NCBI RefSeq assembly: GCF_020906515.1
Contig: NC_085849.1
Location: 1-64,000 of the forward strand
Direction: 5' to 3'
Length of the DNA stretch: 64,000 nucleotides
Origin: Vanrija pseudolonga
Taxonomy: Eukaryota; Basidiomycota; Tremellomycetes; Trichosporonales; Trichosporonaceae
Shown here: positions 440 to 18,185 of the stretch, one piece after another
Layout: each line of letters opens with the position of its first letter
Position numbering within the stretch: position 1 is the first letter of the stretch
Translations under genes and position numbers: made by a program
Notes under the pieces: generated by a model
Seen by the model: the letters and a program-made list of their open reading frames with translations, nothing else
Databases searched by the model: none
Told to the model about the DNA's origin: nothing

Positions 440-3400
440 GGCAAACTCATCACCCACATGTCAGCAGACCTTGCACGCGTGGCCATGTCACCTCGCTCGG
501 TCATGCAAATCCTAGTCACTCCCTTCACCCTTGCGGCAGGTCTCGTGCTTCTCTGTCTGCAGATCGGCGTCTCGGGCATCATCGGCTTCATCGTCATCAT
601 TGTGTCAGCGCCCATTACCACCTGGTTGACGAAGCGAACCTATGAGCAGCGCAAAAAGTCGACCGAGTTCACCCAACAGAGATCAAAGCTGCTACAAGAG
701 TTACTGGCGTCCATGGCGACTGTCAAACTGTTCACCTACGAACTGCCGTTCCTCTCACGCCTCAACAAGACACGTGAATCGGAGCTTAATGGCGTTCGAA
801 ACATCAACTTCCTCGAAGCAACAACAGAGTCCATCTTCCAGTCGCTTCCACTGCTCGGGTCCATCTTTGCATTCATCATGTACTCGGCACTTCACCCCCG
901 CATGGACATTGCGAATCTCTTCACCGCAGTCACATACTTTGCCCTCCTTCAAGGCCCGCTCTACACCATTCCCCAAGCGCTGGGGTCGCTTACCAATGTG
1001 GTCAACGCCCTCCAACGACTGGCACCAGTTTTTGAAGCCGAGCAGCGAAGCACCGAATCGTCTGTTGACCCCACTCTTGACGTGGCCATCAGTGTTCGGC
1101 ATGCATCTTTCCGGTGGGATGCCGTCGACGAGGCCCCACCAGAGAAAGGCGCCAACTCTGCTGCAGCCTTCGCCATTCGCGACCTCAATCTGCAAGTCCC
1201 TCGAGGATGCCTCGTGGCTGTCATCGGGCCGGTTGGGTCGGGCAAAAGCAGCATCCTTCAAGGCATACTGGGCGAAATGACGACCATTGATGGAGACGTA
1301 AAGTTTGGCGGTCGTACATCATATTGCCAACAAGCGGCGTGGATCCAAAACGCAACTCTCCGCGACAACATCCTCTTTGGCCAGCCTTGGGATGAGGCAC
1401 GAAACTGGAAGTGCATTCGTCAAGCCCACATGACACGTGATTTGGAGATTCTACAGGACGGTGATCAGACCGAGGTAGCCTTGAGCGCTGTGTGGTCGCT
1501 GACGTCTCAGATTGGAGAGAAGGGCATCAACCTATCTGGAGGCCAGAAGCAACGAGTCAACATTGCTCGTGCACTGTACTACGATGCCGACATCTTGGTA
1601 AGTACACTTGCTTCAGACGACCGCTCATTCTGCAAGCTTCTCGACGACCCACTCAGTGCGCTTGACGCTCATGTGGGCAAGGCCGTCTTCAACGACGCAA
1701 TCGTGCCGCTGAGAGACGCTGGAAAGACGGTTCTTCTTGTCACTCATGGCCTTCATTTCCTGCCCCGGGTTGACTACATTTACTCGATTGCCGACGGTCG
1801 AATCGTGGAGGAGGGTACTTATGGAGACTTGCTCGCGTCTCCCTCCTTCAAGTCCCTCATTGATGCCTTTGGCGGCGGGCATGAAGCCGACTCGGACGGC
1901 GACGTGGAGGTGGAGCCACCCCAGGCTGCAATCAGTGACGACGCAAACAAAGCTGTTGGAAGCGGCAATGGAAAGGTATGTACACACAACCGCGAGCCTG
2001 CAGAGACTTGAGTTGACGTCGTCCAGGGCACCTTGACAACGGCGGAGAAGCGCGTCACTGGAGCCGTCGGGATTTATGTCTACTGGGCCTACCTTGTCGC
2101 CAGCAATCTCAAATGGCTTGGACCGCTCCTGGTCATGATCGTCCTCATGGAAGGCTCTCAAATCATGTCCAAGTTTGTATCCATCCTCTTTCCCAGAGCT
2201 AACCGATGCAGTGTGTGGCTGACTTACTGGGAGAGCAACAGCTTCCACCGTCTCCCTCCTTTCTATCAGGGCATTTACGCCATGCTAGGCATCATGTCTG
2301 CGATCTTCACCGGCCTGACTGGCGTGTCCCTGGCCTTGATGGCGATCAATGCTTCGCGCAACCTTTACCGCAAGGCTCTTCAGCATGTCTTTTTCAGCCC
2401 CATGAGCTTCTTCGACACGACCCCACTTGGGCGAATCCAAGGCGTCTTCAGCACAGACATTGGAACGATCGACGGTATGGTACCTCTCGCTATGCGCTAG
2501 GTCATTGCAACACTTGCAGGAGTGGGTACACTGATGTGGAGTTGTCAGCGACCCACTGCTGACCCATGCGCACAGTTGATCGGTTCGATCATTGTCATCT
2601 CTATCCACTTTCCCTACTATGTTGCAATGTGAGTAGGGCGACAAGTCCAATCTGACACCATACAGAGTCGCAGTTGTTGGCATTCTCTACGGGTGAGTCT
2701 CGCACTACAAATATCCCCTTCTGACCTCAGCCTCGTCGTTGGATACTATCGTCCATTCGCTCGGGAATCTCAACGACTCGATGCGCTCAACCGTGGCCTG
2801 CTCTTCTCTTACTTTTCAGAATCGCTGACTGGAATGGCTACCATTCGAGCGTACGGAGAAACCGGCCGTTTTCTGTCGGAAAACTCGAGGCTGGTCGACC
2901 TCCAGAATCGAGCCACTCTGGCAAACAATGCCGGAAAGCAATGGCTATACGTGCGGCTTGAAATGGCAGGATCCATTTTAGTGTTTGCGGTTGCCCTCAT
3001 GTGTACCGCCGGTGGTGGCTCGATCAACCCGGGCCAGGTAGCCTTGATCCTGAATTACATGGTGGCAACTACGGCCCAGTTGAGCGCGCTGGCCGGCGTC
3101 GGCACATTGCTCGAGACTGCCAGTACGTTGCCACGCCTTTGGTATAGACATTGATGGCCTCAGTGAACTCGGTGGAGCGCATCTTACCGTACTCTGACGG
3201 CGACATACCGCAAGAAGCCGCCTACGACATCAAGGACACCGACCCCGGTCCTCAGTGGCCAACCAAAGGTGCCATCATTATGGACAAGTTGGTCATGTCG
3301 TACCGCCCCGGCCAGCCCATTGTTCTCAAGGGCGTGTGAGTTGTTTTTACATCTCCAGCATGGTCTGACAACCCAGGTCGTTGAACATTGAGCCTGGTCA

Positions 3401-4091
3401 GCGCGTAGGCATTGTAGGACGGACGGGTGCCGGCAAGAGCTCCCTCACGATCGCTCTATACCGCCTAACAGAGCTTTTATCCGGCACCATCACCATAGAT
3501 GGCGTCGACGTGAGCAAGATTGGCCTCAAGGCGTTACGCTCAAAGCTGTCCATCATCCCGCAAGACCCCGTGCTGTTCAGCGGCACTCTGCGTTCCAACC
3601 TCGACCCCTTCGACGACTATCCCGACGCTGTTTTGAACGAAGCACTGCAGAGAGCCCATCTTGTCAAAGGACCATCCTCAGATGCGACCCAACGGTTTAC
3701 GCTGGACATGGCCATTGATACCGACGGCTCCAATCTCAGTATCGGTGAACGCTCTCTAGTCAGCCTTGCCCGCCCGCTGGTTCGTGACTCCAAGATCATG
3801 GTTCTCGACGAGGCTACAGCTTCCGTTGACCTGGAGACCGACGCTGCGATTCAACAGGCCATTCGCGAAGAGTGCCGCAGGAGCCGCAAGACCCTCCTTT
3901 GTATCGCACACCGCCTCCGTACCATCATTGGCTGGGACAAGATTGTCGTCATGGAAGCCGGCGAGGTCGTCAACTTTGCATCACCCCTAGAGTTGTTTGA
4001 CAACGAGGACGGCATCTTCCGCAGCTTGTGCAACGAATCGCGCATCAGTCGCGAGGAGATTATTCAGGCTGGGCAGATCGAGTCGTTGTAG
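440..4091 (+). pseudogene. 5'-truncated ABCC (YOR1/MRP-type) ABC transporter, cut by the telomere
   Basis: Remains of a full-size ABC exporter, a membrane pump for organic anions or drugs in this family. Exons read as 440-1597, 1637-1975, 2027-2172, 2212-2521, 2576-2628, 2666-2692, 2731-3122, 3164-3335 and 3377-4091, about 1,100 codons; all splice sites look intact. Open codons start directly at the telomere junction with GKLITHMSAD, a conserved cytoplasmic-loop motif inside the first membrane domain, so roughly the first third is gone and no native start exists (the first ATG, 458, lies inside the motif). NBD1 has Walker A GPVGSGKSS (about 1226), signature LSGGQKQR and Walker B LLDDPLSALD; NBD2 has GRTGAGKSS (about 3420), a divergent signature SIGERSL and VLDEATASVD. 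An in-frame TAG at 2498-2500 interrupts the second membrane domain. Family and truncation are very likely; expression is unknown. Confidence 0.9.
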
Positions 4092-4542: not shown

Positions 4543-5474
4543 ATGGGAAAACTCAAGCTACCCTGGCAATACGGAGAGGACGCTGTCCTTGTCAACAACG
4601 ATGTCCTCTACCAGATCCCCTACACGCCCAACTCCGAAGCGGAAGAGATTATGAATGAGAAAGCTCCCCTGCCAATCGTACCCCCCGGTCAACCTGGCGT
4701 CGTTGTCCAAGCGGACGGGTCGACCAAGCCTCTCACAGCCAAGGAGGTCGCCGCGCTCAAACTGAAGTCTACCACGATCAAGAGTGGTGGGAACAGTTTG
4801 CGGCCGACCTGGATTCCCAGTACGTCAAGGAGGCCGCCGAGGCAGGGGCGACCGAGGTCTTCCAGTCTCTTCCGCTTGTCCCCGGCGCCGAGACCGGAAG
4901 CCAGTACTTCCTGAAGCCACCTCGCTCCGAGCAGGAGGTCCACAACCTCCTCAAGGCGCAGGGCTTGCCGCATGTCGTTCAGCTGGTCGGCCGCACAAAG
5001 GATGAGCTTGTGCTTCAGGCAGCCGGGAAAGACTTGTCACGAGGATGGATCGAGGGCGATAACCCCGACGACACGCCGGCCTCGACGCGCCGCTCCTGGG
5101 CTGTGCAACTCGCCGATGCACTTGCCTCCTTGCATGGAAGAGGCATCTTTCACCGCGACATTACCCTCATGAACGCTCTCTTCTCTGGAGAGCAAGCGAC
5201 ATTGTGCGACCTCGAGTGCGGCCCTACCAGCAAGGCCATCATTGCTCCAGAGATGATAGTGCACGGCAAAGGAGCATTCACCGACAAGTCCGACATCTGG
5301 GCATTCGGTATTCTGCTTTGGTCGATCGAGAACCTCAACAATCCCCGCCCGTTCGCCGCCCGGTACTTTGAGAGGATGGGTCAGTTTGGTCCGCTCATCG
5401 ACAAGTGCCTTCAGGTGGACCCGGCTCAGCGCCCCACGGCAACCGAGCTGGCTAGGCTCCTACGCGATGAGTAA
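4543..5474 (+). pseudogene. Protein-kinase-like protein with an apparent one-base frameshift
   Basis: Codons 4543 to about 4760 encode an N-terminal part (MGKLKLPWQYGEDAV...) and, one frame over, 4764-5474 encode a kinase-like C-lobe ending at a TAA. The second part has a possible beta-3 lysine (YFLKPP), the catalytic loop HRDITLMN (HRDxxxxN), DLE in place of DFG, an APE motif (IAPEM) and the helix-F pattern DIWAFGILLW. The frames join without any plausible short GT-AG intron; a single base missing near 4763 would give one continuous helix-rich reading frame of about 310 residues. It could be a decayed gene, an assembly error, or an intron I failed to see. DLE instead of DFG suggests weak or no phosphotransfer even if intact. 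The gene is next in line to the truncated ABC transporter. Confidence 0.6.
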
Positions 5475-5871: not shown

Positions 5872-7527
5872 ATGATCATCTTCGCCTGCGCCATCGCCGT
5901 CGCCATCGCCGCGATCAGATGGCTCACCCTCCCACCGCGCACCTTTGCCCCCGGCCTGCCCGTCATCCCCATCTGGGTCGCGTTCCTCCCCCTCATCCGC
6001 AGCTGGCTGGGGCTGCCTCTCCTCGGCCAGGATGAGACCTACGCTCGCTACATCGCCCCGGCCATGTCCAAGCACGGTGCAGTGGTCATCTTCTTCGGAT
6101 CACAGTGGAATGTCCTGGTTGGCTGCCCCCAAGGCATGATCCAGTTGTTCGGTCGCGAGAGATCCGTCTTTCACAAGAGCGGCAATCATCGCAAGCTCCC
6201 GCGCGCCGTTATCAGTGCGCTGACCGGCGGCAACATCATCTCGGAAACGGGCGAGGTAGGTCGATGCGCACGGCAGCCGCTGACGTCTAGAAATGGCGTA
6301 CCTTTGCTCATGTGATCCGGCCTGCACTCAAGGATCGCATCAACACTGGCGGCCTCGACGTAGCTTGCGCAAGGCTGGTCCAGCGGCTCCGGCGAGATGG
6401 CGAGGTCGTCGCTGTGACATCGATTGTCCAGCAGTACGCCATGGAAGCCGTTACGCTGTGCGTCTTTGGCAAAGATCTGAACGTGAGTGGGTGTCTGTCC
6501 ATGTCCTAACGATCAGTTCCTCGTCCAACCCCCAAGAATTCACGCCGTGCACACCCTCGTCAAGCGGCACATCTTTCATCCACTGTTCCTCAGCGTCCCA
6601 GCGCTTGACAACTACCCCCGGCTCTTCCCGGGTCGAGTGGTGGCTCGAAAACTCATCGCGCAACTCGAGCAAGAGCTGCTGGCAACATTGCCCAGTGCCG
6701 AAGCCAAGGCAGCCCTGAGCTGCAAGGTCATCGATGTCGCTTCGTCGCCGTCGAGCAGCAATGTCTTGTTCGACCTCGATCAGGCATTGCTACACGGCAC
6801 ATTTACGTCCCGAGAGTACATTGACAACTTGAAGAGTGAGCATAGTGCGTCAATGAGGCTAACCGCAAGTCCTCTTCATAGCAGGGCACGAGAATGTTCA
6901 ACAGGCACTGTGCTCTGTCCTCATGGTGCTGGCACGAGATCCCGTGAGGCCGTGTTTGCTTGAGCTACGCTGACCTGGCAGATGCTGCAAGACGACATTC
7001 GACAGGACGCCCTATTGCATCGTGGGAAAGACACCAGCCCATTCCTCCACGCTATCGTCCACGAGACCCTCCGCCTGTACCCACCCATCCCGCAACTGAT
7101 CAACCGCCGCGTCGCCGATCCCTGTGTACTGTCGCTGCCTTCTCAAGGCGGTGCACCCCTCCACGTCCCACTTCAACCAGGCACCTACGTCGGGTGGACA
7201 GCCTTTGGCGTCCACCGTGGCCCGTGGAACAGCACGTGGCAGCCAGATCCCGACGTCTTTCGGCCGTCGAGGTGGGGCACGACCGTGGACAACATCGATG
7301 CCTTGGCCAGAGAGACGAGAAGCCGAGGGGAGTTCACTAGCTTCCACGGCGGCTTACGCGCTTGTCCTGGCCAGGCATTCGCCTTGCGATCGCTTCATCT
7401 ATCCGTCACGGCGATTCTTGCAGACTTTCAACTGTCGCTAGCTTCGGACGACGGCACCAAGCTGACCCCTGGTGGCCTCCTTGCGCCGAGGAATCTGCAC
7501 CTTCGGCTTGTACCAGTTGGCAAGTAG
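5872..7527 (+). CDS. Cytochrome P450 (possibly Dit2/CYP56-like)
   Basis: Exons 5872-6255, 6291-6482, 6517-6835, 6882-6943 and 6982-7527 give a 500-residue haem monooxygenase. A hydrophobic N-terminal segment (IIFACAIAVAIAAIRW) should anchor it in the ER. The exon 3/4 junction restores the helix-I oxygen-binding motif TGHEN; ETLR of the ExxR motif follows in HETLRLYPP; the haem ligand loop is FHGGLRACPG with the cysteine near residue 440. The stop lies 79 bp from the stop of the convergent isocyanide synthase. In yeast, Dit1 (isocyanide synthase) and Dit2 (P450) make a tyrosine-derived product, and in xanthocillin-type clusters a related P450 couples or oxidises the isocyanide precursor; that role here is an inference from position. 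The exact P450 family was not established. Confidence 0.9.
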
Positions 7528-7606
7528 GCCCAGCACGGAATGCGACGTTATCCCGTCTGTGACCCATGCAGCTCACACGCTTCTACACGTCTATGCATGC
7601 CGCTTC

Positions 7607-8919
7607 TTACGACTCTCTAACTGTACACCGAAAGTACGCGCCCTCGCCAGACTTCTGCGATTGGATCAACTCGACTTGGTGCTCACTCTGATCAAGGTTT
7701 ACCAGCATGTACCTCTTCAAGAGCACAAATCCGCCATTGGGAAGCTGCAGCACGACGTTGTGCCAGGGCGTCGGGATGTGGAAGAGTTCCGGCGACGATG
7801 GGCTACCCATTGCGACATCTCCTCGAAAGGATCGGTGCAAGAGGCTGATGGCAAACTTGGGGCCGCTGTTGTCGTGACTAATGCCGTCAGCTTGATATCG
7901 ACAAAGGCTTACGGGTGGATACTGAGGCGAACAGCATCTGGGTATGACACCTCCACGAGCCGAGAGTAGGCTTCATTTCGCTGCGGCATGAGCACTGCCC
8001 CGATGCCACCAACCCACCAAGACCATCAGCTTGGCCATCTCCCAAGCCATCCTCTTTTGCTTTGACCGCGACACCAAGCTGAGAGATGGATGCTGGAGTG
8101 TATCCTCGTAGACAAACTTGGAGAATCCGCGACATAGAGCCATTAGAGAAGGATCTTGCGCGAGCCGCTCTTCAATGGAACCCATCTTCCCAAACAGCGT
8201 CATCAAGATTGATCGGCCCCGCTCTGCGTGTGCAGCCCTAGTCGTCGCCACGGCCCCAGACCGAGGTGCTGGCCACGAATGCCCCTGCTGATCCAAACCT
8301 TTGATCTGGAGGAGGTCACCCAGACCGGCGAACCGGAACAGATGGCTGTCGGAACTGATTCCAAGAGACATGTCTTGGAGCGCGCAGTTGTATTCGTCCA
8401 CAACGTCGTCATCCGTACCAACAAGATCCGAGAAGACATGGCCATCGGAGACTATCCTCATGATGACACCGGGAGGGTAGATCTCTGAGACGGCATCGGC
8501 GAACAGCTTCAGAGTGCGCAGTGCTAGCTCTTCGCCCTTGTCTGGGAAGACACCGATGACCTTGTTCGACAAGCGTCAGAGATTGGAGCGCAGCCATGAC
8601 CTACTCGATTGCTAGATTTACATGGAAACGCGGGTAGGACAAACTCAACAGGGCGCTGCGCAGCCACAAACTGCTCCACGCCACGAGAGAATCTCGAGCG
8701 TCCAGTCGCTCCCCACTGATCATTTGGTGGCGTGTACTTGAGATGCTGTTCGAATAGAGCAATGATGCCCCGGGCCAACGGCGTGGTGTCGGGATGTTTG
8801 ACGACGGCTGTATGTGGGCTCGACATTGCCCCAGTCTTCAGCAGAGCATCAAGGTAGGCCGCCACCACCGAGTCGCAGGGCGCACCCTCCTCTGATGCTT
8901 GGAGCCCGTGAATAGTCAT
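7607..8919 (-). CDS. DIT1: Isocyanide synthase, Dit1/PvcA family
   Basis: Exons (minus) 8605-8919, 8018-8560, 7913-7980 and 7607-7877 encode 398 residues. The Dit1/PvcA family turns the amino group of an amino acid, usually tyrosine or tryptophan, into an isocyanide; yeast Dit1 makes the N-formyl-tyrosine-related spore-wall precursor. Family landmarks run in order: FVLPAFPCKSSN, VIGVFPDKGEELAL, IVSDGHVFSDLVG, DEYN, RNEAYSRLVE, VRLSIHPHDNSGPKF and TPWHNVVL followed by GGFVLLKR. The start is placed at the first ATG (MTIHGLQ); the frame is open upstream but has no ATG, so a short 5' exon is possible. It is convergent with the P450 and heads a block with a methyltransferase, transporter and AflR-type regulator. 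The family is certain from the motifs; the product is unknown, and the symbol marks family membership, not proven orthology. Confidence 0.92.
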
Positions 8920-9221
8920 GGAAGTGGTTGACAATGTGCATCCAGGATCTACCACCAGGTTTGTTTTAGATATCTTCCGGAAATCAAGCACTGGCGCCTA
9001 GTGTGCCCAACAGAAGGAATCCCGCGGGCCTCGTCAGTGTTAGGCACTACGCTACGTAGCGCGGAGACGATGTTCGCAGCACGTTGGCATGACGGCTTGT
9101 CTCAGCTAGACACATGTGTGCGGCAAAGTATGAGCAAAGTCGCCGAGCGGAGGGATAGGGCGGAGAGATAACACCCAGACACTCGGCTTCCGACCAACTC
9201 CGAACAGTGCATTCGCATTCC
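8920..9221. other. Intergenic, 302 bp (isocyanide synthase promoter)
   Basis: Upstream region of the isocyanide synthase and 3' flank of the methyltransferase. Contains the palindrome CTACGTAG near 9053 and TCGGCTTCCGA at 9183-9193. No coding seen. Confidence 0.5.
9183..9193 (-). promoter_or_regulatory. TCG-N5-CGA element upstream of the isocyanide synthase
   Basis: TCGGCTTCCGA on the plus strand differs by one base from the element at 5680-5690 upstream of the P450. Candidate site for the AflR-type regulator of the cluster; not tested, and a short match like this can arise by chance. Confidence 0.25.
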
Positions 9222-10173
9222 CTACGGCTTCTGTCCGAACGCGGTATGGAAGTTGTGGAACCCTTCAAGCGTTTCGCTCTGAGCAATGACACCAAAGCCC
9301 CACTCGACCACAGCGTCTGGAGTGATGCCCCAAGACTGCGAGAGAATCGGTGCGAGCGTGGTGATGAGGCTGCGGTAGTCTTTGACCATGTGCTCGCCGA
9401 TCGCGCCAGCCTTGGAGTTCATCGGAGCCGATGCAACAATGTCCTCGACATTGGCAAGCCCCGCACTGGTGAGAAACTGGGCGAGACTAGGACCCGCGTT
9501 GGGTTCTCCGCCACGTTTGAGCAGAGATCCGCGCATTCCACGTGTGTTCCAATCCTCGATGGCAGGCGTGATGCCCCGTTCACTTCGGATACGACCGTCT
9601 GGCTCGACCATCTGGATCCAGCCACCGGGCTTGGTGATGCGTACAAGCTCTTTAACAGCCACCGGCCACTCGACCTTCTTCAGCGCGCCGGTGAAGAAGC
9701 GCATGTGGACAAAGTCGAACGTGTCGTTTTCGTATGGGAGGCCAGTGAGGACGTTGCCGACCACAAAGTCAATGTCGTTGGCTGCCGTTGGCTTGAACGT
9801 GTCAGCCACAAAGTCGGTGGCATGACACTCGGCCTTTGGGAAAGCTTGCTTGACATCCTGTGACACCGTCAGCTCATTATATCTCCCCTCCCACCTTGAT
9901 CCAGCTGCCAGGTCCACAGCCAACATCGAGCACCTTGCCGCCGGTGGTGTCAAGCAAGTCACGAACAGGCGCCGAAGCCACCGGACCATTGAACAGCAAC
10001 ATAATGAGCCGGTGCTGCTGCTCGAGTCGGTCATATTCTTGTCCGTCCGCCGGCAGAGCATAGATGCTCTCCTTGGTCGAGTGGTATTGGCGAGACTCTG
10101 TTCCGGGAACGAGGTGGAGACCAGCTACCGCCTTGGAGGCGGGAACGGGGTCGGCAACAGCAGTGGGCGACAT
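9222..10173 (-). CDS. SAM-dependent methyltransferase (class I, small-molecule type)
   Basis: Exons 9895-10173 and 9858-9894 intron, then 9222-9857, giving 304 residues. The SAM-binding motif I VLDVGCGPG sits just before the intron, followed by the acidic loop region AECHATDF, an aspartate-containing DIDFVVGNV, a motif III-like FDFVHMRF and KPGGWIQMVEPDG. This layout is the one common in fungal secondary-metabolite methyltransferases. The start is the ATG of MSPTAVADPVP; a longer in-frame stretch upstream lacks an ATG. It follows the isocyanide synthase in the same direction, and known isocyanide clusters such as the xanthocillin cluster also carry an O-methyltransferase, so methylation of the cluster product is a reasonable inference. 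Confidence 0.88.
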
Positions 10174-10378
10174 GATGTTTGGGAGATAGGTGGGTGCTTG
10201 GCTGGTGAAATCGCTGCAGACGGTATTTGTTCTGCCAGCGGCCTCGGTGACTTTTTCGACAAGCAACTAGTCGAGATGTCAGTCACGCAGTATGTGGCCG
10301 CTTGCTTCTTGGACTCGGCAACTTTGCATCTATCTGATACGGGGAGAGTGCGAGCTCCGAGTCTGGAAGGGATGCTTG

Positions 10379-12240
10379 CTACGCGATCACTGGAGCATGC
10401 CCTTCAACAGTTGCCTGCTTCTCCAGCTCCTCGACCTCCTCTCTATGAATGATGGCGATACCTTCAACATCATTGCACCACCATGTAAGGCCGAGCGCAA
10501 TGAGAAAGAAGACGAGGGCGACGACCGCTGGGAGGCGCTGGTTGTTGGTCTTGTCGACAATCGGCCCATTGACGACTTGAGGGATCCATGCCGTGGCACA
10601 TGACAACTTTGCGGTCAGCCTTACTCATTGCCTTGATACTCACGACCAGTTGGAAGCCAAAGTATTGGATTTCGTTTCCCTTGGGGAACATTTCGGGGAA
10701 GAGAACGCGGAAGAGGGGGTTGAGGATGGCGCCTGCGAGCGACACGAGCACCTGCGACTCAGCTAAACCCCCTCGTGGCCACCCTACACACCTGGAAGAC
10801 GTAAAACTCTGCGCGGTGCTTGAAACCAATGGCCACCTTGTCGCTCATGCCCAGGCAGCACCAAAAGGCAGAAAAGATGACGAGGGAGTACGAGCTCATG
10901 GCCCATTGACGGAGGGTGATCTTGAAGTGTGGAAACACGTACATGAACACGACCGAACCGAGGACAGTCGTGATGCTGCCAGCCACATTGTAGGCGGTGA
11001 ATTCACGGATGGATGGGCGAACAGTCAAGTTGAAGAGTTGACTCGTGACAGCGCTAAAGGCGAAGAGGGAGTCGTTGCAAATGGCGTAGGCAACGAGGAA
11101 CAGCATGGCGTTTGTATACTTGCTGATACCTCTCCACAGGCTGGCAACTGTTGCATGTCAGCCTTGACCAAGGAACCGACTACTCACAAACTGTGAATGG
11201 CAGCAACCACCACCTGCCTTCATACGCGATGGGTGCCGGGGACGGAAGAAATGGCCACCCGAGGAGGGCACAAATGATGCAGACAGCCCCCGACGCGGTG
11301 GTCATGTACAGCCCCGCATTCTTCTGGGCATCCATGGTCGCGTAAGAGATGCCAATGGTGATGACGTTGAACAGCACGACGGCGACGTTGAGCGCCACGG
11401 TGCCTCCAACGGATATCTTGAGTCCCTCCATCTCTCGCTTGGCTCGGAGCTCTTTGCGACCCTCACCGTCAATCTTGTCGAGGGCATCGAGCCTGGCCTG
11501 CGCTGAGAGATCCTCGATAGGAGCGGCGGCCTGCATTGTGTATGGGATAAAGATGTTGCCCCATGCAATGACGAGGTATCCGACCACGCCAAAGATGGTA
11601 TAGAGCCAGATGAAGCCATAGTAGTTTGACAGGTTGTAGACAGTCAGACCTGCCGCAGGGAGACATAGAGCACCGTAGATGATGACGAGGAAGATGTATT
11701 GTTCGCGTTTATATCCTTGAGACGTCAGCCACCACGCAGATACCCGTGCCCGTACTCATGTGGTCGCCCCAGGCGCATACAAACAGCGTGACGAATCCGC
11801 CAACACCAAAGCCAATGGCGTTAAGATAGAGCAACAAACTCGTGAGGTTGACGTCGGATTTGCCAAGAGGAACGCGACACGGCAGACCAAGGTCGGGGCA
11901 TCCGGTATGAGGAGGCATGCCCGGGTGATGCCCGACCGACCAGAAGGCCGTCTGCTGGATCTGGAACGACATGTAGATGATGCCAGAGCTGAACGCTGGT
12001 CCGATCTGGAGACATCAGCACTCTGCAAGCCGTGAATGCAGGATCTGCTGCAAGACCCGCCCCACATACCCCAAAGTTTGTCAGACAAAAGGCCCAGTGG
12101 TACCTCCGGAGTTGCGCTCGGGAGGCCCCAGAGGTCACTTCTCCTGCGCCATCACCAGGCAACCACTGGTGGTCGGTCTCCTTCGTTGTCATGTCGGACT
12201 CGATTCGCTTTGGCTGTGCACGAGTGCCCATGCTGCTCAT
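10379..12240 (-). CDS. Atg22-like major facilitator transporter
   Basis: Six exons (12070-12240, 11756-12005, 11188-11715, 10792-11147, 10644-10751, 10379-10606) encode 546 residues of a multi-helix membrane protein. It resembles the Atg22 family: a conserved loop LWRGISKYTNAMLFL before the second bundle, ICNDSLFAFSAVTSQLFNL, and NPLFRVLFPEMFPKGNEIQYFGF, which matches the Atg22 MFPxGxExxxFG pattern. Atg22 of yeast releases amino acids from the vacuole. Located between the methyltransferase and the AflR-type regulator, this paralogue may export the cluster product or sequester it in the vacuole; that is inference. Start: two close ATGs (MSSMGTRAQ), the first chosen. The hydrophilic N-terminus of about 50 residues is cytoplasmic by the usual topology. 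Confidence 0.82.
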
Positions 12241-12673
12241 GTTGGCTTTCGTTTGCGTGCGAGGGGCTCCTCTCCATCACACCACGGCCATCACGTTGCT
12301 TAAATGTCTAGCGCGCGCTACAAACATGATAAGTCGCCGAGAAGTCTCCGCTCTGCCGCACATTCCGCAGCCCCTTGCAGGACGTTCCTTCCAATCAATC
12401 AAATGCCTCCGGACAGTGAGAGCATTGTTCAGTTCTTGCCAGCCAGTTAGCCATGGCCAGTTAGCCATGGCCAACCTAACGACATCCCGGTCCTCGCAGA
12501 TCCCGGTGACGAACCAGCGTAAGAGTTGTGCAGGTGCATAGGTTGAGGTTACAGTACCCTATTGCCCCTCGAGGTCGGTCCAAAGACTGGACACTCGGCG
12601 CTCGAGGTCTTTCAGCTGGCGGGTAAACTTGTCATGTCTGGACTGTAAGCACTGGTTCAACTGCTTGCGACTC
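12241..12673. other. Intergenic, 433 bp
   Basis: Lies between two minus-strand genes. Holds a 14-bp tandem duplication at 12443-12470 and an open minus-strand stretch (12559-12837) that might be a missed last exon of the regulator, though no in-frame splice could be built. Confidence 0.5.
12443..12470. repeat. 14-bp tandem duplication (CCAGTTAGCCATGG x 2)
   Basis: Two perfect head-to-tail copies of CCAGTTAGCCATGG, about 200 bp upstream of the Atg22-like start codon. Probably a replication slip; a regulatory role cannot be judged. Confidence 0.8.
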
Positions 12674-13998
12674 TCACAGTATGCTATCATGCCCTTCCGT
12701 GTCACCATTGTCGAGGCAACCTTGGTCGAGTTTGACGACGAGCGCCCGGCTGTACATTGCCAGGTCATTGACTTCGGCCTGGACGGCCGTGATGACGAGT
12801 CGCTTGGCATTTTGTGACTGTGGCTGGTACGACCCAATCACCACAAGCGGCATGTTGATACCGTCACCACGGGCAGACAGCAGAGAAGGTAGTGACAGCC
12901 GGAGGCTCTGAATGGCCAGAGATACGACAGTGTACATTGCTGTCGCAGTGGATGGGTCCGCGACGCACATCTTGCAGGTGTCGGAGGCCAAGCACATCCC
13001 ACTTGCAGTCTGGGCCGCGTGAAGTGCCAGTTCGATGGGAGATTGAGGGGGTGCTGGACTAGTATTACATGGGCACTGGCACGTCGGTCCACAGTCTCCG
13101 CAGGACGGAGTCGTCACCGTTCGTGGTCGGGGCATGCCACGTAGAAGGCCTCGAAGTCGATCGATAACAAAAGCGGCATGGCAGAAGCAGTCTGAGGGTG
13201 TCTCCATTGGCGTGGACCGTGATGTATCATGAGCAATGCCGCTGCCCGCATGTGGGCCATCTGTCCCGGGTGCCGCCCTCTCGGAGGCCGAAGTTGATGG
13301 TCGAGAGCACAAGGCCTCGGGCGTGAACATTGACGTGCTCCCGCAAAGGCTGGTGAGGAGGTCACCGTTTCCCACCAGTGGAGACGGTGCTATTGCTGGG
13401 TATTGTCGGGCTGTTGAAAGCCTGAGGCTGTCCAAGCTCCCTGGGTTGCTCCAACCTGCGGGAACAGCCAGCCAATCGAGGCAGTCTACTGAAAGATCAG
13501 GAGACACAGGTAGTGAACTCGAGGTCGTTGGTAGCGATGGCATGGCTGCCAATGTCGGAGACCATATCATGGTGCTCCCGAGAGGGACCGCGGACGAGCT
13601 CTCCGCTGGATGAACCAAGGCATCGCCTCCGAGTTCTGAGAGGTCCAGAAAGGACGTCGACTGCTCCAAGCTCGTGGAAAGCAGAGTCGGGGTCGTAGAT
13701 GGGGTCACAGGAGACCATGATGGAGGAGTCGTTGGCGACTGCTGGCCCGTTCTTGGCCGTCCCATGCGCTTACGTGCACCTTGATGTGTCAGTCTGACAC
13801 TGCGACATGCTCACTGAAGGTGCAGGGCTGGCCTCGACCGAAACAGCGGGCACATGCGCCACCGGTGGACCCTCGGCCCGACACCGTCCTCCGATCTGCT
13901 CCAGCGCATCGGAGTTTGCGCGCCCGGCACTGGTCACAGGACGCTCGGATCGGTTGATCTTCTACGGCAGCAGTGTCGTTTGACGCTGAGCGGGGCAT
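12674..13998 (-). CDS. AflR-type Zn2Cys6 pathway regulator
   Basis: Exons 13815-13998 and 12674-13779, joined by a 35-nt intron, give 429 residues. The N-terminus carries a binuclear zinc cluster: ASCDQCRARKLRC, a longer loop, then CARCFGRGQPC. The middle is Ser/Thr/Pro-rich. The C-terminus has the marks of the AflR family: a Cys-rich stretch (DCFCHAAFVIDRLRGLL, CQCPCNTS) and IGSYQPQSQNAKRLVITAVQAEVNDL, like the GxYxxxxxxAxRxxxQLVLxELxxL end of AflR. AflR-type proteins activate secondary-metabolite clusters, which supports reading 5.9-14.0 kb as one. ATG at 13998 was chosen; a GTGAGT about 40 bp upstream may be the donor of a 5' UTR intron. The C-terminal end is slightly uncertain (possible extra exon to 12559). 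Confidence 0.85.
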
Positions 13999-15133: not shown

Positions 15134-15839
15134 ATGACACCTGCTCCAACATGGAAGACGGTCCTCGAGATCGCCAAGGTAGGGACCGCCGACATCGGCG
15201 AAACTGACAGCCCAGGAGCGACACTCTTACTACAGCATTAAGAACAGCTCCACCCTCTCCGACGACGAGCTCATCACCATCCTCAAGGAGTCGGTCAACA
15301 ACAGCCCGACACCGTTCAACAACCAGAGCACTCGCGCCATTCTTATTCTTGGGCAGAAGAACAAGGACATGTGGGAGGCCATCTGGACTGCCCACAGGAC
15401 GACCCTCTCGGGCCGTGAGTGTGTCCCACATGGGCAAAGACTGACTTTGCAAGCGGAGCACGAGCGCAAGGCCCGCATCAAGTACGAGGCTGCGTACCTT
15501 GGTGGTTACGGCACCTACCTCTTCTTCGACGATGAGAACGTCGTCGACGGCATGGTCAAGGCGATGCCCAACCTCAGCACGGCTTTCCCCGCCTGGGTCG
15601 GTAACGCCGCCGGAATCCTTCACTACATTGTGTGGACCGCTCTCGAGTGCGCCGGCATGGGAGCCAACCTCCAGCACTTCCCCCAGCTCTCCCCCGTCAC
15701 TGCTCCTGCGCTCAAGGAGTTCCTCAAGACACCCGACAACTGGTCGTGCACCGCCATGATTCCGTTCGGCGAGATCAACGGCGCCCCGCCCGAGCGCACC
15801 TACCTCCCCGTCGACGACAAGGTGCTCGTCATTCAGTAA
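15134..15839 (+). CDS. Nitroreductase family protein (Hbn1/Frm2-like)
   Basis: Exons 15134-15178, 15216-15414 and 15454-15839 encode 209 residues. The fungal Hbn1/Frm2 group of FMN-linked nitroreductases shows the same landmarks: RHSYYSIKNSSTLSDDEL, NNSPTPFNNQSTRAILI (the FMN phosphate-binding region with SPxxFNxQ), FFDDENVVD, NAAGILHYIVWTALE, LQHFPQ and CTAMIPFGE near the end. Such proteins reduce nitro or quinone compounds with NAD(P)H or act in lipid/redox homeostasis. It lies 1.1 kb from the AflR-type regulator and 116 bp from the convergent isocitrate-lyase-like gene; whether it belongs to the isocyanide cluster cannot be decided from position alone. Confidence 0.88.
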
Positions 15840-15955: not shown

Positions 15956-17461
15956 CTACAAACCCGTGCCAATGATCTCCTGAGCCTGGTCGCTCAGCTT
16001 GGCCAGGTCGAGGAGCCAGTACAGCAGGTCCCTCTGCTTACCTTGGACCCTCTCTGCATTCTGGAGGAATCCAGACACGCCGCCCTCCTTGATGGCCTGA
16101 GCAGACGACCGGGCACCAATGCCCACAGCCGTCATGCCTCCAACCGGCATCCACTGGTACACATACCCCAGCTTGGCAAGCTTCTCGGGTGCCTCGGCAA
16201 CCTCCTTGCTCTTGGAAAATTCGGCCGGGAGGACGGTCCAGTTGTAGGCGAGCCAGCGGCCCGGGACGGCGGCGCGGACACCCTTGGCAAAGGCCTCGAC
16301 GGCCGGCCCGTTGTACGGCTTGGTCTGGCATGCCCATGATGCGTCGGTGTACGGTGCGCAGACAATGGCTCGGGCGGTAGCGGCTTCGACACCTCCACGG
16401 AAGGGGAACCAACCCTGGACGGTGCGAGCAGCATCGGCTGACCAGTAAAACTCGGGAGCGAGCTTGGCAGCAACCAGCAGGGCCTCGGATGTGTTCTTGC
16501 CCTTGGTCTGGGCATTGAACGTGTCGATGAGGGCAGGGTGGGCAGCAGCAAAGGCCTCGTCGAGTGTCTTGAGCTCGGCAGCCTGGATCCAAGTCTTGTA
16601 GTCTGGGGCTGATGCCGCGTCGTACGCCTGGGGAATGGATGCGCCGAGAATGAAGGGGCGGTCGCGAGGGTCGACGGTCGAGGTGATATGTGTCGCCGTC
16701 TCGGCGTCGGTACGGTGGATGCTGACTACCTCGGCGCCCATGATGTCGAGCTGAAGCTTGGCAGCGATGTGGCGGCGAACGGCCTCCGACAGCGGAACAA
16801 CAACGTAGCCGACACCGTCCTTGCCGTCGTAGCGCTTGCAACCCGACAGCAGGTCGTCGATGTGGAAGCCGGCGACGCCGGCCTGGACGAACAGCTTGAC
16901 AATCTTCATAACTGACGACTGGAAGCCAAAGCCCGAGTCACCGTCGGCGATGATGGGGATGATGCGGTAAGGTTTGCCGAGGGCTTGAGCAGTACGCGCA
17001 TGCACAAGCTGTGAACGGTACAGCGTGGCGACCTTGCTCGGGACAGTGTCATATGTGTAGTCGGAGAGGTCGGTCGAGGGGTCCTTCGTGGTTACGTCGG
17101 ACATGGCTGACACGCCACCCGAGGCGTAGACAACATCTGTGGAGTGTCAGTGGGCCACCAGCAACACACACAACGGGCACGTACCAAGACCCGACTCGGA
17201 CAGCACTTGCGCCGTGATGCCATCACCAGCACTGATGGTGAGGTTGACAGACTGATCCCTGGCATGCCTCGTGAGGGTCTCGCGAAGGAGGAGGCCCATA
17301 GCACTAGCTCCATCTCCTTCTGGGAAGATGTCGCGAAGCTGGGCGACCTCGGCGGCAGAGTATGGGCGAGTGATGCCGCGTTGGGACGGGGTAGCCCACC
17401 ATTCCTCAATCGCCGCGGCTGAACGCCACGCGTCGAGATTGTCGTTGAGTGTAACAGTCAT
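15956..17461 (-). CDS. Isocitrate-lyase-like protein with altered catalytic motifs
   Basis: Exons 17185-17461 and 15956-17136 (48-nt intron) give 485 residues, short for fungal isocitrate lyase (about 530-550). The fold of the ICL/PEP-mutase superfamily is clear: WWATPSQRGITRPYS at the start, DYTYDTVPSKVATLYRSQL, metal-binding IIADGDSGFG, GFHIDDL, LDIMGAEVVSIHRTDAETATHITSTVDPRDRPFILG and LAKLGYVYQW. The isocitrate lyase signature KKCGH is absent: the site reads GCKRYDGKDGVGYV. The second catalytic motif SPSFNW has become LAYNWT. The enzyme therefore probably acts on another 2-substituted malate- or oxo-acid-like substrate, or is not a lyase. The start ATG at 17461 gives MTVTLNDNLDAW. It is convergent with the nitroreductase and divergent from the first MFS transporter. 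Confidence 0.85.
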
Positions 17462-18185
17462 CGTCTTGAATTTCAAACGCTGGTATGGGGTGGTGGTCGG
17501 TTGGGCTTCTCGGTCGCTTGTACCAGTCCATGATGCTTTCGATCTCTCTTTATCGATATTCCAGCGTCGGACAAGGTGCCGCCGCGCGCTGGACCGGCCG
17601 ACAATCTTGCTGCGCCCGCCATCGGCCTCCTCGGCTCAACCGTCCGGCTATCGCGAGTTCCTGGGCCCCACCGTGCCCAACCCAGCCGCGAATGTGGGGT
17701 GACGTGTGGCCGCTCGATAGGAATGCAGCAAAGGCAAAACAGCTCGATTGCTATCGGGCGGCAAGTGGTGCGCCAGTCACATGGCAACTGTCGGCACTTG
17801 GTGCGACCCGGAGACCCCACAGAGTCGGTGAGGCCTGGACAACCGAGGGCAGGCATGAGGACAGAGGCGGCGGAGAGAGCGCCGCCAAGATCCAGCCAGC
17901 TGCTCCCTTCAGGACATTTTCTCTGTGGTCGTCGTTGGAACAAACTGTTTGCTCACCACCACTTGGATCTCACAGGATTTGATGCAGCGGCGCAACGGCC
18001 GATGCTCACTATCTTGGTGCCCCTCGCGTCGGCTTTGTGCATACCCCAGGCTCCTCACATACCCACGGCAATGACCTCAATGTTGATATATCTTATCCAC
18101 AGTTCCAAGGCGGGATGATGATGTCCCAAGCCCACGGCAGCGATACTCCACCGGCCCCACCGCCCCCTATCTCCTCGATCTCAGC
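17462..18185. other. Divergent promoter region, 724 bp
   Basis: Shared upstream region of the isocitrate-lyase-like gene and the first MFS transporter. Contains CGG-N8-CCG at 17568-17581 (a Zn2Cys6-type site, also found in other promoters of the neighbouring cluster). ORFs here overlap on both strands and look random. Confidence 0.5.

Follow-up and report, generated by a model that had tools for sequence, protein, structure and literature searches.

Does a pathway of the DIT1-DIT2 type exist in the Basidiomycota? The question is raised by a group of genes in the tremellomycete yeast Vanrija pseudolonga (Trichosporonales), whose genome comprises 24.87 Mb in 9 contigs. The genes lie at the left end of C1, a contig of 4,733,269 bases whose first 64 kb are the window analysed here; for this species, PMC12820176 cites a genome assembly from strain DUCC4014. 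Dityrosine is known from the ascospores of Saccharomyces cerevisiae and from Candida. In yeast, Dit1 leads to N-formyl-tyrosine, which Dit2 dimerises; what Dit1 itself makes is not yet established, and it has been proposed to be an isocyanide (PMC5974471). According to a survey published as a 2023 preprint with data of September 2021, no basidiomycete held a dit cluster and the co-localised dit1/2 pair was restricted to Ascomycota (PMC10153163). Among the papers that we searched, none reported a Tremellomycete isocyanide or a dit cluster in that class, and the words 'isocyanide' and 'Tremellomycetes' occurred together in a single one, on Phyllosticta. Here we describe a five-gene cluster that probably encodes the basidiomycete counterpart of DIT1-DIT2, with a methyltransferase of its own and a tail-to-tail gene order.

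Results

Five genes, every one modelled with GT-AG introns, lie at 5872-13998 of the window. This agrees with an earlier reading of the sequence (the original prediction), which had placed five genes in a stretch of 8 kb in a tremellomycete subtelomere, and the cluster begins 5.4 kb from the telomere. The first gene (5872-7527, plus strand; exons 5872-6255, 6291-6482, 6517-6835, 6870-6943 and 6982-7527; 504 amino acids) encodes a Dit2-type cytochrome P450 (Pfam p450, 1.4e-29). It is followed at a distance of 79 bases (7527 to 7607), tail to tail with the 3' ends facing, by the gene of a Dit1-type isocyanide/formyl-tyrosine synthase (7607-8919, minus strand; exons 8605-8919, 8018-8560, 7913-7980 and 7607-7877; 398 amino acids). 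The other three genes are also on the minus strand, and their predicted products are a class I S-adenosylmethionine (SAM) methyltransferase (9222-10173; exons 9895-10173 and 9222-9857; 304 amino acids; Methyltransf_25, 2.1e-13), an ATG22-like major-facilitator transporter (10379-12240; 6 exons; 546 amino acids; ATG22, 1.6e-61) and a Zn2Cys6 transcription factor (12674-13998; exons 13815-13998 and 12674-13779; 429 amino acids). The Pfam search of the synthase, P450 and methyltransferase was run on slightly earlier models (394 and 500 amino acids for the synthase and the P450, respectively). The transporter had one other match in the genome, a weak one (25%); ATG22-like carriers transport amino acids at the vacuole, as described for Atg22 of Schizosaccharomyces pombe (PMC4471098). 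The regulator had been proposed to be of the AflR type, a proposal that was not borne out: Zn_clus (3.4e-4, 21.1 bits at a cut-off of 21.0) was its sole Pfam match at E<=0.01, and the AflR domain was not found.

The original prediction had made placement in the Dit1/PvcA family a test of its reading of the synthase. The protein is a stand-alone PF05141 domain (DIT1_PvcA, 6.9e-70), with 236.1 bits against a curated cut-off of 26.4, and the three exon matches to PF05141 in the whole genome all belong to this one gene, with no other locus. A protein search gave 630 relatives at E<=0.001 in a large protein collection, of which the best 120 are described here. Proteins of yeasts and moulds under the name Dit1 are among these 120, as are five named-basidiomycete rows; identity was 68% with V. 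albida, 43% with Violaceomyces palustris and about 40% with chytrids, followed by Ascomycota Dit1. In a quick, unrooted tree of the window protein and 54 of the 120 matches, in which Tilletiaria, Tilletia and one Violaceomyces form long branches that call for caution, the Vanrija, Violaceomyces, Tilletiaria and Tilletia synthases grouped together with five further rows (Shimodaira-Hasegawa-like approximate likelihood ratio test, SH-aLRT, 93). This group adjoined the chytrids, with the Ascomycota across a branch of 99, and a recent transfer from Ascomycota is therefore not favoured. XanB is a synthase-dioxygenase; the tree was built without XanB-type sequences, and the split from that clade is drawn from match ranking and domain content. 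Bacterial synthases of solved structure (PDB 3e59, 9dh4 and 9dhm) matched the window protein at 5e-23 to 2.7e-29, in keeping with the statement that the dit type resembles bacterial synthases more closely than other fungal synthases do (PMC10153163). By its sequence, then, the synthase is of the Dit1 type. We also observed that the V. albida synthase and four relatives (entries P0001 and P0003-P0006) end at or just after R-L-S-I-H-P, which is where window intron 3 (7878-7912) starts; since the stops coincide with the start of the intron, this intron is probably shared and the entries cut short.

The window P450 model was identical to the deposited protein P0121, 'Cytochrome P450-DIT2 [Vanrija pseudolonga]', and 80% identical to the V. 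albida P450. With 8000 candidates scored, the protein search gave 17 matches, 11 of them at >=186 bits, after which the score drops to 52. Among these 11 are four dit2/DIT2-named proteins, from Vanrija (two), Tilletia and Aspergillus steynii, the last one bearing the name 'N-formyltyrosine oxidase Dit2'. When this Aspergillus Dit2 was used as query in the genome studied here, the window P450 came first (93 versus 48 bits), so that the two are reciprocal best matches. A tree of the 17 P450s separated the top 11 from the other six, which served as the only outsiders, by a branch of 100/99, with the basidiomycetes unresolved among the Dit2 proteins. We thus assign the P450 to the Dit2 type. The main text of a P450 survey over 23 Tremellomycetes mentions no CYP56 family, its three string matches being longer names (PMC6627453).

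Conservation in relatives was examined for the synthase, the P450 and the methyltransferase. The search with the last gave 119 matches, all listed, ten of which reached >=270 bits while the next had 161. The six named proteins among these ten are all from basidiomycetes, namely V. albida (89% identity), Violaceomyces (56%), Tilletia horrida (53 and 52%), T. maclaganii (53%) and Tilletiaria (51%), and in the tree the window gene and the top ten form a clade of 11 rows (100/99). In V. albida the methyltransferase (Q8F55_001623) and the synthase (Q8F55_001624) have consecutive locus tags. Equal contig size, which we read as the same contig, joins the two genes also in T. horrida (OC845_005009 and OC845_005006, 41,326 bases) and in Violaceomyces (54,736 bases), and joins synthase, methyltransferase and P450 in Tilletiaria (155,449 bases). 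Among the 120 listed synthase matches, four of the five named-basidiomycete synthases are accompanied by the methyltransferase. The V. albida P450 is on a contig of equal size to that with the synthase and methyltransferase, and P0006 and P0126, on contigs of 15,930 bases each, provide a further synthase-P450 link. Judged from these homologues, a core of synthase and methyltransferase is conserved in other basidiomycetes, as the original prediction of conserved clustering had anticipated, and predicted linkage of the P450 to this core is shown in two genera, Vanrija (V. albida) and Tilletiaria. The repeated co-occurrence of synthase and methyltransferase in further basidiomycetes makes the cluster more than a chance assembly. 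The V. albida methyltransferase homologue has a predicted structure (predicted local distance difference test, pLDDT, 84), and a PDB profile search returned distant methyltransferases (best 3mgg, 4.7e-23) plus chance rows of transcription activator-like (TAL) effectors. Elsewhere in the genome, a pair of diverged methyltransferase relatives lies on contig C5 (2641500-2649500), no more than 5 kb apart and about 75 kb short of the contig end. They are 33-53% identical in pieces, the smut methyltransferases are closer to the window gene than they are, and no other cluster gene was matched in that 8 kb.

The synthase showed one anomaly. Relatives carry a K-S-x-N-x-x-K motif, and exon 1 of the window gene ends one residue past the asparagine. 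The sole AG near the end of intron 1 (8561-8604, minus strand) falls two codons past the point where relatives resume, and this first AG comes after two codons that would encode N-K. The second lysine of the motif is also present in the three aligned PDB sequences (3e59, 9dh4 and 9dhm), and a literature search on the mechanism found no statement on whether it is catalytic. The predicted absence of this lysine from the window protein is compatible with an error in the assembly, with a splice site of an unusual kind or with damage to the gene, and the window copy may be impaired or misassembled.

Words resembling copper-control sites were also considered. A Mac1-like word, TTTGCTCA, lies on the minus strand at 9131-9138, at a distance of 212 bases upstream from where the synthase starts; this is probably chance (there are three such words in the window). 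In addition, TGTGCTCA was found upstream of the regulator. Upstream at the four copper-transporter (Ctr) loci of the genome, TTTGCTCA and TGTGCTCA each scored 0/4, and TTTGCGCA occurred at one of the four. We have left copper control as chance, and the metal chelation or copper control suggested originally found no support.

The telomere occupies about positions 1-439 (no strand assigned) and consists, by its sequence, of CTAACCCC repeats (TTAGGGGG). An ATP-binding cassette (ABC) transporter gene at 458-4091 directly abuts these repeats; PF00005 was found in both halves, and PF00664 aligned only from profile position 116; apparently the gene lost its front as this chromosome end arose. Next to it, a small protein-kinase-like gene in two frames (4543-4914 and 4965-5474) has a partial kinase domain and is either interrupted or contains an unmodelled intron. 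With the front of the ABC gene missing at the telomere and an interruption in the kinase gene, decay close to this chromosome end is plausible. On the other side of the cluster, 15959-17476 encodes an isocitrate-lyase-family protein (PF00463, 5.1e-63, partial profile), adjoined by a short gene at 15134-15839, of which the piece searched gave no Pfam match.

Discussion

We consider it probable that the cluster represents the DIT1-DIT2 pathway in a basidiomycete form, and a dityrosine-like pathway thus probably exists outside the fungal group to which it was thought confined. The Dit1-type synthase would convert L-tyrosine into tyrosine isocyanide or N-formyl-tyrosine, and a tyrosine-derived isocyanide or formamide, as originally proposed, is the likely first product to judge from the synthase family. 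The Dit2-type P450 would then join two such molecules at their phenol rings to give formyl- or isocyano-dityrosine, and the methyltransferase, the basidiomycete addition, would cap a phenol or carboxyl. The ATG22-like carrier might transport tyrosine or the product over the vacuolar or plasma membrane, and the Zn2Cys6 protein would turn on the set. As there is no dioxygenase in the window, the carboxyl should stay, and formyl- or isocyano-(di)tyrosine would be expected rather than xanthocillin. The likely end product is a methylated N-formyl- or isocyano-tyrosine dimer, and the methyltransferase makes this a direct chemical prediction that can be checked by mass spectrometry.

Several observations weigh against this interpretation. 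The predicted spliced synthase lacks the lysine of N-x-x-K, which is kept in all 118 readable relatives (of the 120 listed). A second Violaceomyces synthase (P0058) is on a contig of 18,201 bases where no methyltransferase is listed; among the 17 P450 matches, that of T. horrida is on a contig of different size and none is listed for Violaceomyces. Vanrija is not known to form ascospores, so the role known from yeast cannot be carried over. The gene order differs too: the dit genes of Saccharomycotina are divergent (PMC5974471) and the published clans 1-3 of the dit superfamily (Nickles et al. 2023 preprint) share that orientation (PMC10153163), whereas the window genes are tail to tail.

An unlikely alternative is that the product is no dityrosine but a soluble metabolite, a tyrosine-derived isocyanide or formamide acting as chalkophore or antimicrobial; the P450 would then oxidise but not dimerise, and a monomer would receive the methyl cap. 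The isocyanides of Aspergillus fumigatus are copper-regulated and its P450 XanG is a Dit2 homologue (PMC5974471), the set resembles metabolite clusters in comprising a transporter and a regulator, and TTTGCTCA stands upstream of the synthase; however, the window P450 groups with Dit2 proteins, and the copper word is unsupported by the Ctr genes.

It could also be that relatives have a working cluster of which the window copy is a subtelomeric remnant in decay, a reading that we regard as rather improbable. The predicted loss of an invariant lysine and the neighbouring truncated ABC gene and interrupted kinase would fit, as would the lack of a V. pseudolonga synthase among the best 120 of 630 matches although the V. 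pseudolonga P450 is deposited. Yet the five long genes are otherwise open with ordinary introns, the methyltransferase and the P450 are 89% and 80% identical to those of V. albida, and a single sequencing error would also account for the splice site. Finally, although in either pathway an isocyanide synthase is accompanied by a methyltransferase and a Dit2-like P450 (PMC5974471), a xanthocillin-type vinyl isocyanide pathway is very improbable and we reject it, because none of the 41 TauD dioxygenase matches of the genome and none of its four matches to DJ-1/PfpI (the isocyanide hydratase family) lies in the window, the synthase is a lone PF05141 domain, and its nearest relatives and those of the P450, among the matches listed, are Dit1 and Dit2.

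If the cluster is indeed a basidiomycete DIT1-DIT2 pathway, a dit core conserved in Tremellomycetes and smut-related fungi would set its origin earlier or imply transfer, and the core would no longer be tied to the ascospore. It would also supply candidate genes for the dityrosine-like signals that were reported, without genes, from the wall of Cryptococcus neoformans (PMC7712904). A wider proposal, which we advance tentatively and rate somewhat short of even, is that an ancient dit clade peculiar to the Basidiomycota exists, inherited since before Vanrija and the smut relatives separated and lost in most other lineages, whose methyltransferase would yield a methyl-capped, non-ascospore dityrosine or isocyano-dityrosine, that is, a new class of aromatic wall component or secreted metabolite.

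Among known systems, PvcA and the bacterial tyrosine or tryptophan isonitrile synthases (3e59, 9dh4 and 9dhm) share the homologous synthase fold family with the window protein, but they are bacterial and the alignment spans about the core only. The xan cluster of A. fumigatus resembles the window set in its isocyanide synthase, Dit2-homologous P450 (XanG), putative methyltransferase (XanE) and regulator (PMC5974471). It differs in that the window has no match to a dioxygenase or to the isocyanide hydratase XanA and has a Zn2Cys6 regulator, and in that the xan cluster, as described, has no predicted transporter whereas the window has one (PMC5974471). The original prediction had drawn parallels with both xanthocillin and DIT1-DIT2, listing a transporter in the former; that listing is at odds with the description of the xan cluster, and of the two parallels only the one with DIT1-DIT2 stands, with the Dit1-type synthase and the Dit2-type P450. 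The window set departs from the DIT1-DIT2 cluster in being in Basidiomycota and in having a conserved methyltransferase, an ATG22-like transporter and a Zn2Cys6 gene, and agrees with it in the stand-alone Dit1-type PF05141 synthase that has a Dit2-group P450 as its neighbour. Since kinship and co-localisation are found here and the shared orientation that defines the clans is not, the set falls outside the named clans, yet judged by its anatomy it would work like dit.

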